NCBI GenBank assembly: GCA_024643555.1 | Contig: JAHEMQ010000003.1 | Coordinates: forward strand, 1-42,854 | Direction: 5' to 3' | Length of the DNA stretch: 42,854 nt | From: Crocinitomicaceae bacterium | Lineage (GTDB): Bacteria > Bacteroidota > Bacteroidia > Flavobacteriales_D > Crocinitomicaceae | Part shown: positions 37,098 to 42,556 of the stretch, piece after piece | Position numbering within the stretch: position 1 is the first letter of the stretch | How the letters are laid out: each line of letters begins with the position of its first letter | Program-made: the position numbers and the translations under genes | The notes under the pieces: generated by a model | The model's input: the letters and a program-made list of their open reading frames with translations, nothing else | What the model was told of the DNA's origin: nothing | Database searches by the model: none

Positions 37098-39779
37098 ATG
37101 TTAAAATATGCTTACTTCGTTTCGACATTTTTGTTGATTACGGCTTGTCATCAAACCAAAGAATCTGTTCAGGTTGAAGAAGTCTGGGAAGCCCCAACTG
37201 AACAAATTGAAGGGATTCCAGAAGATATCAGCGACATCGCATTCGACGAAGTTATGATGGAGGAAGAAAATCCGTATGTTAGAGGTATTTATAATTCTTC
37301 AAGAACCTTATTGACAGATATCGTTCATACACGTTTAGAGGTGAGTTTCGATTGGGAGCATGCGCGTTTAAACGGGAAAGAAATCCTAACGGCGAAACAA
37401 CATTTTCATCCTTCCGATAGTTTGATTTTGGACGCAAAAGGGATGGACATCCTTTCTGTTGAAATGAACAACAAAAAGTTAGCTTATACCTATAAGGACT
37501 CATTGCATTTGCGCATCCAATTGGACCGTAAATATACAAGAGATGAGAAATTCAATGTAACGATTCAATATGTCGCAAAGCCGGATGAGCGTAAAGTAGG
37601 CGGAAGCGCAGCGATTACTTCGGACAAAGGACTTTACTTTATTAATCCGAAAGGAGAAGATAAGACCAAAATGCCGCAAATTTGGACACAAGGTGAAACG
37701 GAAGCAAACAGTGTTTGGTTTCCAACGGTTGATGCTCCAAACGCGAAGTCAACGGAAGAAATCTTTATCACCGTACAAGATAAATACATGACACTTTCCA
37801 ATGGAAAGTTGATTTCATCCAAGAAAAATGCAGATGGTACTCGAACGGATTATTGGAAACAAGATTTGCCTCATGCACCGTACTTGTTCATGATGGCAGT
37901 GGGTGAATTTAAAACAGTCAAAGATACCTACACGCGCAAAGATGGCTCTAAAATGGAGGTAAATTACATTGTTGAACCAGACTACGAAAAAAATGCAAAA
38001 GCGATTTTTGGAGAAACTCCTGAAATGATTCGATTTTTCTCAGAACGCTTGGGCGTAGAGTATGCTTGGGATAAGTATTCGCAAATTGTGGTGAGAGATT
38101 ATGTTTCTGGCGCCATGGAAAATACGGGAGCTGTTGTTTTTGGTGACTATGTTTACAAAACGGACCGCGAATTACTAGATGGAAATGATCAGTCGACCAT
38201 TGCACACGAATTATTTCACCATTGGTTTGGAGATTTGGTTACCTGTGAATCTTGGTCAAATCTACCCTTGAATGAATCCTTTGCGAATTACTCGCAATAC
38301 CTTTGGGATGAGCATCGTTATGGATTGGATGAAGCTGATTACCAAGCAGAAAATGAAGCAGATGGGTATTTTAACTCTGCCGAAAATGGGGGTTACTACA
38401 ATCTAATTCGTTTCGATTACAATGACAAAGAAGACATGTTCGATGGGCACTCCTACAACAAAGGTGGACGCATTCTACACATGTTGCGAAATTATCTGGG
38501 TGATGAGGCATTCTTTAAAGGATTAAATGTGTATTTGACTTCGAATAAATTCAAAACAGCAGAAGTACACAACCTACGTATGGCTTTCGAAGAAGTTTCT
38601 GGAGAGGATTTAAACTGGTTCTTCGATCAGTGGTTTTTAAACAATGGTCATCCAGTAATTGAGGTGAAACAGAGTGTGAACAAAGAAACGAACATACTTA
38701 CCTTGAGTGTGAAACAATTACAAGATGTCAATGACTTCCCGATTTACAAACTTCCAGTGGATGTTGCGATTTGGGATGGAGCCGGTAAAACGAGCAAACG
38801 CATTGTCGTGGACTCCTTGGAACAACAATACCAATTTCAATTAACAGGCACCCTTCAAAATGTTTTGTTTGACGAAGCTCAAATGCTGCTTGGAAAAATT
38901 TATGAGGACAAGCCGACAGATCAATTTATCTTCCAATACTATCAAAATCCGCGTTGGAAAGCACGCAATACGGCCTTAAAACGTGTAGCGAATTTACCGT
39001 CCGAAAAAGCAAAGAAATTGGTAAAAGATGCATTGAAAGATCCGTTCTGGAATATTCGTGTATCTGCACTTGCTTCCATTGAAAAAATGTCCAAAGAGGA
39101 TGCGGTGACTTATTTACCTCAAATGAAGGATTTAGCGATGAATGATCCAAAATCAGATGTGCGTTCGGCGGCTATCGGTCTAATGAATTTATTAGAAGGT
39201 GATGAAGCAAAAGCATTTTACAAATCGTTCTTTGAGAAGGAAAAGTCTTACAATGCAATCGCTGCTGGACTTGGATCGTACATTAAAGTCGATGAAAAAG
39301 ATGCCTTGACCATTGCTCGTAGCATGAAAAATGAACCGGCAAAACCATTGAAAGTAACCGTTGCAGAGGTGATCGCGCAAATTGGTGATTCTTCTGATTA
39401 CGATTATTTGGATCAATTGATCTACCACAGCGATTTAAAAGGGTACGATGAGTTGAGAACAATGATTTCATATGCGGTATTCATTATGCGCATGAACATT
39501 GACTTACAAGAGAAATCTCATGCCGTGTACATTCATTACAATGAAGTTGGAGCTGGCATCACCAAATACTGGGTGAAACAAGCCATTCAATTCAACTTGC
39601 AGAATTACATGGAAATGGTGAATTCCTTAGATATGGAAATTGCTGAACTAGAGGAAGGTAAATCTTTCGCTAAAGCAGACGAGAAAAAACGACTCAAACA
39701 ACGATACGAAGACTTGATTCAAAACTTAATGCCATTAGGTCAGGAAGAAGAATCCCCTGTTGACGTTGAAGGGAATTAA
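37098..39779 (+). CDS. M1 family aminopeptidase lipoprotein with HEAT-repeat tail
   Basis: An 893-residue zinc aminopeptidase. The signal ends in LLITAC with Cys17 lipidated, so it is anchored to a membrane outside the cytoplasm. The N-terminal beta domain is followed by GAMENTG (residues 338-344), which binds the substrate amino terminus, and the zinc site HELFHH with His370, Glu371, His374 and distal Glu393 (HEXXH-X18-E). From about residue 620 helical HEAT-like repeats appear (ARNTALKRVANLPSEKAKKLVKDALKDPFWNIRVSALASIEKM). It is a single gene converging on the SDR gene with 4 shared bases. Confidence 0.93.
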   Translation: MLKYAYFVSTFLLITACHQTKESVQVEEVWEAPTEQIEGIPEDISDIAFDEVMMEEENPYVRGIYNSSRTLLTDIVHTRLEVSFDWEHARLNGKEILTAKQHFHPSDSLILDAKGMDILSVEMNNKKLAYTYKDSLHLRIQLDRKYTRDEKFNVTIQYVAKPDERKVGGSAAITSDKGLYFINPKGEDKTKMPQIWTQGETEANSVWFPTVDAPNAKSTEEIFITVQDKYMTLSNGKLISSKKNADGTRTDYWKQDLPHAPYLFMMAVGEFKTVKDTYTRKDGSKMEVNYIVEPDYEKNAKAIFGETPEMIRFFSERLGVEYAWDKYSQIVVRDYVSGAMENTGAVVFGDYVYKTDRELLDGNDQSTIAHELFHHWFGDLVTCESWSNLPLNESFANYSQYLWDEHRYGLDEADYQAENEADGYFNSAENGGYYNLIRFDYNDKEDMFDGHSYNKGGRILHMLRNYLGDEAFFKGLNVYLTSNKFKTAEVHNLRMAFEEVSGEDLNWFFDQWFLNNGHPVIEVKQSVNKETNILTLSVKQLQDVNDFPIYKLPVDVAIWDGAGKTSKRIVVDSLEQQYQFQLTGTLQNVLFDEAQMLLGKIYEDKPTDQFIFQYYQNPRWKARNTALKRVANLPSEKAKKLVKDALKDPFWNIRVSALASIEKMSKEDAVTYLPQMKDLAMNDPKSDVRSAAIGLMNLLEGDEAKAFYKSFFEKEKSYNAIAAGLGSYIKVDEKDALTIARSMKNEPAKPLKVTVAEVIAQIGDSSDYDYLDQLIYHSDLKGYDELRTMISYAVFIMRMNIDLQEKSHAVYIHYNEVGAGITKYWVKQAIQFNLQNYMEMVNSLDMEIAELEEGKSFAKADEKKRLKQRYEDLIQNLMPLGQEEESPVDVEGN

Positions 39780-40537
39780 GATTCTTTGTGTAGGATACTA
39801 GCGCTTGCTTGAGCAGTAGGCATGATGGTGATGTCACTGATGTTCACGTGTGCAGGACGCGTCACCGCGAATAATACGCTATCTGCAATGTCCTGAGCTT
39901 GCAATGGCTCGTATCCCTCATAAACGGAAGCGGCAGTATCTTGATCACCTTTGAAACGAACCAGTGAAAACTCTGTCTCCGCTGCGCCAGGAGCGATATT
40001 TGTTACCTTAATCCCATATGATACTAAGTCGATACGCATGGAACGAGAAAGGGCATCCACGGCATGTTTGCTGGCACAATACACATTTCCACCGGCGTAT
40101 ACTTCCTTACCAGCGATACTCGCAATGTTGACGATGTGTCCGTGCGTTTGTTTTTTCAAATACGGAACAACTGCCTTCGTAACATATAAAAGTCCTTTGA
40201 TATTGGTGTCAATCATGCGATTCCAGTCGTCGGAAATTCCTTGGTCGATTGGACCCCTGCCAACAGCTAGTCCAGCATTATTTACAAGAATTTCAATGCG
40301 GTCTTTTACATTTTCTGGAAGAGAAGTGATGGCAGCAATGACCGCTTGTTCCTCACGGACATCAACAGTGATGAGTTCAATGTGGATTGGTAGATGACTT
40401 AGTTTTTCTTTCAGCGATTCTAATCGTTCGGTGCGACGTGCCGCGAGGATTAATGAGTATCCTTCGTTTGCCAAACTGTGTGCGATCGCTTCTCCAAAAC
40501 CCGAGCTTGCTCCTGTAATTAATGCATATCCTTTCAT
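39776..40537 (-). CDS. SDR family oxidoreductase (YdfG-like)
   Basis: A 253-residue classical short-chain dehydrogenase. NADP-binding TGASSGFGEAIA with Arg residues after the second strand (AARRTERL) suggests NADP preference; NNAGLA follows; the catalytic set is Ser140, Tyr153 and Lys157 (NVYCASK). The overall pattern is close to YdfG, which oxidises 3-hydroxy acids and serine and reduces malonic semialdehyde; the true substrate is unknown. It diverges from htpG across a 129-bp region with repeated half-sites. Confidence 0.92.
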   Translation of the reverse strand: MKGYALITGASSGFGEAIAHSLANEGYSLILAARRTERLESLKEKLSHLPIHIELITVDVREEQAVIAAITSLPENVKDRIEILVNNAGLAVGRGPIDQGISDDWNRMIDTNIKGLLYVTKAVVPYLKKQTHGHIVNIASIAGKEVYAGGNVYCASKHAVDALSRSMRIDLVSYGIKVTNIAPGAAETEFSLVRFKGDQDTAASVYEGYEPLQAQDIADSVLFAVTRPAHVNISDITIMPTAQASASILHKES

Positions 40538-40542
40538 GCTAC

Positions 40543-40643
40543 AAAAGTGACAAAATAATTCTAAAGAGGCGTAATTTCTGACGAAAGCGAAGGAAATCTT
40601 GTCAAAATGTCACTTTTTACTCCATGGCATATTCCTTGACAAG
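40543..40643. promoter_or_regulatory. Cluster of TGACA/TGTCA half-sites between an SDR gene and htpG
   Basis: Four pentamers occur within 100 bp: TGACA at 40548-40552, TGTCA at 40600-40604, TGTCA at 40608-40612 and TGACA at 40637-40641. They form two perfect inverted repeats: AAAAGTGACA (40543-40552) / TGTCACTTTT (40608-40617) and CTTGTCAA (40598-40605) / TTGACAAG (40636-40643). The second pair lies 23 nt before the htpG ATG. It does not resemble CIRCE. It may be an operator for htpG, the SDR gene or both. Confidence 0.45.
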
Positions 40644-40666
40644 AAAAGGGAAATAAATTAATCATC

Positions 40667-42556
40667 ATGAAAACAGGACAAATACACGTACAAACAGAAA
40701 ACATTTTCCCGATTATTAAAAAATTCTTGTATTCCGACCACGAAATCTTTCTTCGTGAATTGGTTTCGAATGCGGTAGATGCTTCTCAAAAACTTCACGT
40801 ACTTGCAAAGAGTGGCGAGTTCAAAGGGGAATTGGGTGATTTGAAAGTTGAAGTGATCCTCAATAAAGAAGAGAAGACCCTTACCATTCGCGACCGAGGA
40901 ATTGGAATGACCGCGGATGAAATTGATAAATACATCAATCAAATAGCTTTCTCTGGAGCAGAGGAATTCGTTCAACAGTACAAAGGGAAAGAAGGAGCAG
41001 AACAAATCATCGGACACTTTGGACTCGGATTCTACTCAGCATTTATGGTAGCAGAACGCGTACAAATTAAAACCTTGTCACGTCACGAAGGCTCCCAAGC
41101 AGTGCAATGGGAAAGCAATGGCTCTCCAGAATATACCATTACGGAAATCGAAAAAGATGACCGTGGTACAGACATCATTTTGTACATCAATGAAGAGTCC
41201 ATTGAGTTCTTGGAAAAAGGACGCATCGATGGGATCTTAACGAAATACTGTAAGTTTTTACCCATTCCGGTTTTCTTTGGAACAAAAACAGAATACGTGG
41301 ATTCTCCTGAAGGAGAAAAAGATGAGGATGGAAAAGTAAAACGGGTGGCGATTGATGTCCCTTATCAAGTGAATAATGTCGCACCAGCTTGGACCAAAGC
41401 GCCAGTGGATTTAACAAATGAAGATTACAATGCGTTTTACCGAGAATTGTATCCTGCAACGTTTGATGAGCCCTTGTTTCACATTCACTTAAATGTTGAT
41501 TATCCATTTAATCTAACTGGAATCCTTTACTTTCCGAAAATCAAAGAAAACGTTGAAGTTCAACGAAATAAGATTAATCTTTACTGCAATCAAGTATTCA
41601 TTACGGATAGTGTGGCTGAAATTGTTCCAGAATTTTTAACCCTGCTTCATGGGGTAATTGATTCTCCGGATATTCCTTTAAATGTTTCTAGATCATATCT
41701 TCAAAGTGATGGAAACGTCAAGAAAATATCGGCGCACATCACGAAAAAAGTAGCGGACAAGTTAGCTGAAATGTTTAAAAAGGACCGTAAAGATTTTGAA
41801 TCCAAATGGGATGATCTTCAGATTTTTGTTCAATATGGCATGCTCTCGGAGGAAAAATTCGCAGACAAAGCAAAAGAGTTCAACTTGGTCAAAAATACAG
41901 CGAATGAGTATTTCACCATCGAAGAATACCAAGAGAAAATTAAGGCACTTCAAACGGACAAAGACAATAAAGTAGTCATTCTCTACACGAACAATCCAGA
42001 AGAGCAATTCTCCTTTGTGAAAAAAGCGAAAGACCGTGGATACGATGTTCTTCACCTAGACGGACCGCTCGCTTCACACTGGATTTCAAAAATGGAACAA
42101 AGCCTTGAAAACGTAAGTTTTGTCAGAGTGGACGCTGATTCATTGGATAAACTCATCAAAAAAACCGACGAGATTCCGTCGAAATTATCCAAAGAGGACG
42201 AAGAGAAATTAAAACCTGTATTTGAGTCCAATGTAACCAAAGAGAAATTCACGGTGCAATTCGAGAGCATGAGTGAAAGTGAAGCTCCAATTATCATTAC
42301 ACAGCCGGAGTTTATCCGCAGAATGATGGAACAACAACGATTAGGTGGCGGTGGATTCTATGGTGCCTTTCCAGAAATGTACAACATGACCGTGAATGCC
42401 AATCACCCAATTATTGGATCGCTTTTACAAAAAAGTGACGTTGAACAAGCCTCAACAACCAAACAATTAATTGACCTAGCCATGTTGGCACAAGGAATGT
42501 TAAAAGGAGAGGCCTTGGATCAATTCATCCAACGAAACATCGAACATATTGCTTAA
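40667..42556 (+). CDS. htpG: Molecular chaperone HtpG (Hsp90)
   Basis: A 629-residue ATP-dependent chaperone. The GHKL ATPase domain has FLRELVSNAVDASQKL, IRDRGIGMTADEIDKYI and GHFGLGFYSAFMVA; the middle domain has VQRNKINLYCNQVFITDS and PLNVSRSYLQSDGNVKKI; the C-terminal domain carries the dimerisation helices. There is no eukaryotic MEEVD tail. The length fits Bacteroidota HtpG. It is probably monocistronic, since a partial gene begins 37 nt downstream with its own weak start. Upstream repeats may mediate stress control. Confidence 0.96.
   Translation: MKTGQIHVQTENIFPIIKKFLYSDHEIFLRELVSNAVDASQKLHVLAKSGEFKGELGDLKVEVILNKEEKTLTIRDRGIGMTADEIDKYINQIAFSGAEEFVQQYKGKEGAEQIIGHFGLGFYSAFMVAERVQIKTLSRHEGSQAVQWESNGSPEYTITEIEKDDRGTDIILYINEESIEFLEKGRIDGILTKYCKFLPIPVFFGTKTEYVDSPEGEKDEDGKVKRVAIDVPYQVNNVAPAWTKAPVDLTNEDYNAFYRELYPATFDEPLFHIHLNVDYPFNLTGILYFPKIKENVEVQRNKINLYCNQVFITDSVAEIVPEFLTLLHGVIDSPDIPLNVSRSYLQSDGNVKKISAHITKKVADKLAEMFKKDRKDFESKWDDLQIFVQYGMLSEEKFADKAKEFNLVKNTANEYFTIEEYQEKIKALQTDKDNKVVILYTNNPEEQFSFVKKAKDRGYDVLHLDGPLASHWISKMEQSLENVSFVRVDADSLDKLIKKTDEIPSKLSKEDEEKLKPVFESNVTKEKFTVQFESMSESEAPIIITQPEFIRRMMEQQRLGGGGFYGAFPEMYNMTVNANHPIIGSLLQKSDVEQASTTKQLIDLAMLAQGMLKGEALDQFIQRNIEHIA

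Follow-up and report, generated by a model that had tools for sequence, protein, structure and literature searches.

The window, a stretch of 42,854 nucleotides, belongs to a Crocinitomicaceae bacterium whose assembly comprises 2.19 Mb in 118 contigs and is 86% complete. Towards its end, htpG and a gene encoding an SDR-family dehydrogenase are divergent and separated by 129 bp (40538-40666). This region and its two flanking genes show the following features, in window positions:

39776-40537, minus strand: gene encoding an SDR-family dehydrogenase of 253 amino acids, divergent from htpG (Pfam adh_short, 6.4e-53)
40543-40552 and 40608-40617: arms AAAAGTGACA and TGTCACTTTT of a 10-bp inverted repeat, paired at 10 of 10 positions
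40550-40557, minus strand: possible promoter box of the SDR gene, TATTTTGT, which fits TAnnTTGY (SM5 of PMC9723704) and overlaps the left TGACA arm
40597-40605 and 40636-40644: arms TCTTGTCAA and TTGACAAGA of a second inverted repeat, paired at 9 of 9 positions, the left arm overlapping the putative operator and the right arm containing the TTGAC of the -12 element
40601-40611, plus strand: putative activator operator, a dyad GACA-N3-TGTC, here GTCAAAATGTC with one mismatch
40625-40640, plus strand: sigma-54 -24/-12 element TGGCATATTCCTTGAC (GG-N10-G), with TGGYA-N8-G in 80 of 80 htpG regions
40651, plus strand: predicted htpG transcription start, 13 nt past the -13 G by sigma-54 geometry, with a leader of about 16 nt
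40667-42556, plus strand: htpG, encoding Hsp90 of 629 amino acids (Pfam HSP90, 9.4e-48)

The earlier note on this DNA described two perfect interlocking inverted repeats, of 10 and 8 bp, as the unit of control. Both are present, and the second one is of 9 bp. In dinucleotide shuffles of the 129-bp gap, a perfect inverted repeat of at least 10 bp appears in seven of 1000 and two distinct inverted repeats of at least 9 bp in none of 1000; such a pair is unusual for a gap of this length. The window and the nine closest loci with the same SDR neighbour show the pentamer positions conserved in all ten, the 10-bp repeat intact in two, and the second repeat at 8 bp or more in two and at 5 bp in the other eight. 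Since pairing survives in only two of the ten nearest loci for each repeat, the nested pairs are not the selected unit and were rejected as such; they pair by chance, and involve the dyad, the -12 element and a lone TGTCA nearer the SDR gene. The right-hand TTGACA of the earlier note is the -12 promoter element itself, and the control element is real and conserved, having been misparsed. The sequence TGACANNNTGTCA, searched in the own genome, gives a single site, which adjoins an integrase-like ORF (named by reading its sequence) and no chaperone gene.

The upstream region of htpG was compared in the window and 79 relatives, leaving out one locus (L080) with too little upstream sequence, and its profile (n = 80) is GaCA-N3-TGTCA-N12-TGGCA(C/T)A-N4-TTGAC. 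All 80 regions show the GG-N10-G geometry, and the two T before the -12 G are invariant in all of them, though the search did not demand them; most start codons lie 36-50 nt from TGG. The -12 dinucleotide is GA in 61 regions, the window among them, GT in 13 and GC in six. The strict sigma-54 consensus has GC at this position, which is absent from the window and present at grpE of the same genome. This strict form is not decisive, because the published regulon of Flavobacterium psychrophilum includes htpG (PMC9723704). The gene rpoN was found in 30 of 30 genomes searched, and the same element is located at groESL, dnaK, grpE, lon, clpB and htpG, the lon element in relatives only. By the geometry of this element, transcription of htpG would start at 40651.

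Upstream of the -24 box, the 80 htpG regions also share the dyad. In the window, outer TGTCA copies are at 40600-40604 and 40608-40612, 13 nt separate the dyad from the -24/-12 element, and the dyad centre lies at about -45 relative to the predicted start. All 80 regions have a dyad with at most one mismatch whose distance to the -24 box is 12-14 nt; the TGTCA 11-13 nt upstream of this box is exact in 74 of them and deviates at one position in the other six. The second base of the left half-site is A in most regions and T in the clade of the window, which is why a direct TGTCA-AAA-TGTCA had been seen there. The N3 spacer is specific: among 178 promoters, 57 exact copies have it, versus none to three for each spacer of 0-2 and 4-10. 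Paired half-sites that look like the target of a stress-gene regulator, as suggested before, are conserved in the relatives and their nested pairing is not; conservation upstream of htpG extends to the dyad and the promoter (80/80) and not to the long repeats (2/10).

The element was also searched blindly in 30 genomes, with the pattern GACANNNTGTC-N13-TGGYA-N6-TTG at up to two mismatches and the reversed pattern as control. This search gave 151 matches versus 52 in the control; the 19 genomes of the genus show 102 versus 24, and the own genome six versus two. The six precede htpG, groES and grpE, placed by coordinates, and genes encoding a thioredoxin, LemA and a rhomboid protease, identified by translation and Pfam; the relatives add lon and hsp20. 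In the phylum (296 genomes, at most one mismatch), matches are present in 57 of the 73 genomes of the class, whose members contain 107 matches versus 13 controls, and in 25 of the 223 genomes outside it, the loci kept being chiefly grpE, htpG, dnaK and clpB. Genes for chaperones, proteases, rhomboid proteins or thioredoxins follow 24 of the 30 loci kept from the 30-genome search and 23 of the 30 kept from the 296-genome search; the remaining loci of both precede other genes, lie at contig ends or are likely chance. Gene contexts of blind matches were read from translated N-termini and ten proteins were checked with Pfam, which did not confirm the presumed hsp20 at one locus (L339). A looser pattern, TGTCA-N10-16-TGGYA-N5-7-TTG, shows seven matches in the own genome, with htpG as the sole chaperone gene. 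The recurrence at other stress genes on which the earlier note had staked its regulator is thus found at groES, dnaK, grpE, clpB and hsp20. HSP20 was not found in the own genome, as in 11 of the 30 genomes, and full-length ClpB is absent from the own assembly (G000), which contains one Clp ATPase below the ClpB cut-off; at 86% completeness, the absence of ClpB may be an assembly gap. At LemA genes (L285, L289), the operator is accompanied by TGGAA replacing TGGYA in the -24 box.

Dyad spacing was analysed in promoters whose -24/-12 box scores 5/6, others being left out: 80 of 80 for htpG, 30 of 30 for dnaK, 21 of 27 for grpE, 21 of 30 for groES, 16 of 23 for clpB and 10 of 12 for hsp20. Within the 140 nt preceding the -24 box, dyads with at most one mismatch were counted in 176 distinct promoters of these six gene families. 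Their spacings are 12-14, 23-24, 33-36, 43-46, 52-56, 63-67, 74-77, 82-86 and 96 nt, with two dyads at 21 and none between these clusters; the distances to the -24 box follow the rule 13 + 10.5n, which corresponds to one helix face. The reversed pattern shows nine scattered matches in the same 176 promoters. For the 90 dyads beyond 16 nt, R is 0.83 at 10.5 bp. To reduce the effect of relatedness, the count was repeated in one genome from each of 11 other families, with 44 dyads in 45 promoters; R is 0.87 at 10.5 bp, a value reached by none of 20000 random placements, 0.68 at 10 and 0.60 at 11. For unique gene-spacing pairs it is 0.83 (n 49), though homologous promoters are not fully independent even in these sets. 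The dnaK dyad sits one turn further out than that of htpG, and nine of 30 dnaK regions show no dyad at up to two mismatches (spacings 11-15 and 21-25). The upstream dyad is therefore recurrent, distance-tolerant and in helical phase, as an enhancer would be. A separate arrangement, TGTC-N9-GACA, is located further upstream of dnaK (e.g. L146, L150, L151); over the 178 promoters, exact copies number 19 with N9 and nine with N10, some of them being the groES hairpin.

On the other side of the gap, the earlier note had the chaperone and the dehydrogenase controlled together, and this part is not supported. On the SDR strand, no GG-N10-G lies in the stretch from the dyad to the SDR start; both copies on this strand are beyond the dyad, towards htpG. 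The SDR neighbour was seen in the closest clade alone, and the htpG element is present in all 80 regions. The fixed spacing of the dyad is to the htpG promoter. Co-control was rejected because of the missing GG-N10-G towards the SDR gene and the restricted neighbourhood, and by this evidence the dehydrogenase is outside the regulon. With low confidence, TATTTTGT is a possible SDR promoter, and the left TGACA may be the TTGTCA part of this TAnnTTGY-like box.

As to the protein that may bind the dyad, the own genome encodes two proteins with strong matches to the sigma-54-activation domain (PF00158), and only one shows an HTH, the other being a receiver-AAA+ protein. This candidate is of 414 amino acids and contains an AAA+ domain and a Fis-type HTH, without a receiver. 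Its gene is found in the order miaB, candidate, LptE-like lipoprotein, tetratricopeptide-like protein, secG, groES and groEL (names of neighbours other than groES being read from sequence). The candidate gene shares the strand of groES and stops about 1.9 kb short of it. Across the 30 genomes, 24 have the candidate on the strand of groES and less than 5 kb away from it. Candidate and groES are on separate contigs in two genomes (G001, G029), groES was not found in two (G012, G018), and the two genes are far apart in G020. In G025, only a receiver-type protein without an HTH and not the candidate was found, yet operators are present; its groES contig stops before the place of the candidate, so an assembly gap is possible. 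In G011, which is 99% complete, the candidate is the sole enhancer-binding protein found. The C-terminal sequence ISERTLYRKI(K/R)E is common to all 22 proteins extracted, from seven families, a comparison that left out the linked proteins of G026 and G028; a constant C-terminal helix is as expected if the operator were ancient.

Two further observations concern these proteins and the groES region. A receiver-AAA+ sigma-54 activator without a DNA-binding domain (L119:1252-2418) adjoins a pcm-like gene and is kept across families. The own secG-groES gap (L287:4800-4975) contains, after secG, a TGTCAG...CTGACA hairpin with a T-run, which encloses a TGTCA-GTA-TGTCA repeat before groES; terminator and operator at groES seem to use the same bases in most genomes compared.

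Taken together, we consider it probable, at roughly 0.75, that 40601-40640 is the htpG promoter-operator of a Bacteroidia sigma-54 protein-quality-control regulon, the groESL-linked protein being its likeliest binder. RNA polymerase with sigma-54 (RpoN) would occupy TGGCA-N6-TTGA(C) as a closed complex, and an AAA+ enhancer-binding protein would sit as a dimer on GACA-N3-TGTC, 13 nt upstream at htpG; under proteotoxic stress, the ATPase of this activator would open the complex. This role would most likely fall to the receiver-less PspF-like protein encoded upstream of secG-groES-groEL. The computation itself covers the conservation of promoter and operator, their recurrence, the phasing, the linkage of the candidate gene and the domains of its product; from these we infer binding of the candidate to the operator, an activating role of the site at htpG, and unfolded protein as the signal. 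Against this reading, A follows TTG in most htpG regions (61/80) in place of the consensus C, and textbook enhancers lie further from the promoter than the htpG dyad. The genomes G025 and G020, the nine dnaK regions without a dyad and the three possible activators of F. psychrophilum also count against it. A wider model, which we hold at a little under even odds, is that the Bacteroidia run their heat-shock response through sigma-54 and a single sensor-less activator encoded with groESL, which would act from GACA-N3-TGTC operators strictly on one face over up to eight turns and would be inhibited by the very chaperones that it induces, in a titration loop like PspA-PspF or DnaK-sigma-32.

The strongest competitor, clearly less probable, keeps the sigma-54 promoter and assigns the dyad to a different protein, whether a co-activator, an enhancer-binding protein other than the candidate or a repressor overlapping the closed complex. 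Repressors and class II activators are also positioned at about -45, where the htpG dyad is fixed; operators are present in G025, where the candidate was not detected, and some genomes encode a third enhancer-binding protein. However, in-phase sites up to 96 nt away are odd for a steric repressor, and the own genome, at 86% completeness, shows one enhancer-binding protein bearing an HTH. That the dyad serves a repressor, as CIRCE, HspR and CtsR operators do, is very improbable, even though inverted repeats at chaperone promoters, as here, are typical of such operators. The CIRCE consensus is TTAGCACTC-N9-GAGTGCTAA, and this arrangement was not found; among 202 chaperone upstream regions, the best matches have 5/18 mismatches for CIRCE and 3/14 for HspR, and CtsR reaches 2/14 in three regions, none at htpG. 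On these poor matches the three were rejected, in agreement with the remark that the repeats are not CIRCE. Even less credit is due to the idea that TTGACA at 40636 is the -35 of a sigma-70 type promoter: a consensus scan gives TTGACA-18-AATCAT (10/12), but this is one site versus 0.8 in shuffles, its -10 would touch the htpG start codon, conservation is limited to TTGAC, whose spacing to TGG is that of a -12 element, and flavobacterial sigma-A uses TAnnTTTG (PMC9723704). It is equally improbable that the repeats are due to chance or form a transcribed hairpin with no function in regulation, and an RNA element was rejected: the repeats are not conserved as pairs and the arms can pair in RNA with a z of -1.85 (9 of 200 shuffles as stable), but the element is in all 80 htpG regions and recurs genome-wide, the operator is upstream of the predicted start and so outside the htpG transcript, and Rfam gave no match.

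The promoter-operator reading can be set beside known systems. CIRCE/HrcA, HspR, CtsR and sigma-32 are common controls of chaperone genes, and they have other operators and another sigma class than the htpG element. PspF of enterobacteria is like the candidate in having the AAA+ domain first, a Fis-type HTH and no receiver; the candidate AAA+ domain matches PspF at 8e-62, its nearest solved AAA+ domains are of the NtrC family (1e-72), and the candidate differs by a long linker and its groESL neighbourhood. It is PspF-like in layout only, and PspF orthology is not implied. For F. psychrophilum sigma-54 (SM4), the text available describes mapped -24/-12 starts at htpG, groESL, dnaK, grpE-dnaJ, lon, clpB, a thioredoxin-family gene and one for a rhomboid protease (PMC9723704). 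The promoter class at htpG is that of the window, so this part is already known biology. As far as that text goes, the sigma-54 link is published there, three candidate activators are noted with none singled out, leaving the activator of the Bacteroidota chaperones unnamed, and, unlike here, no activator site or phasing is given. Predictions of sigma-54 regulons by phylum (2025) show chaperone orthologues, including HSP90, that are in Bacteroidota enriched downstream of the predicted promoters, with promoter matrices only and no operator or activator in the portion available (PMC12316311), and the accessible part of Francke 2011 contains no statement on Bacteroidota chaperones (PMC3162934). 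The operator, the helical phasing and the candidate activator, which these texts as available do not mention, are new here and are put forward as proposals. With an operator of 11 bp, a rule for its phase and a single candidate gene, the question becomes testable and a regulon finder is at hand for genomes of the class.
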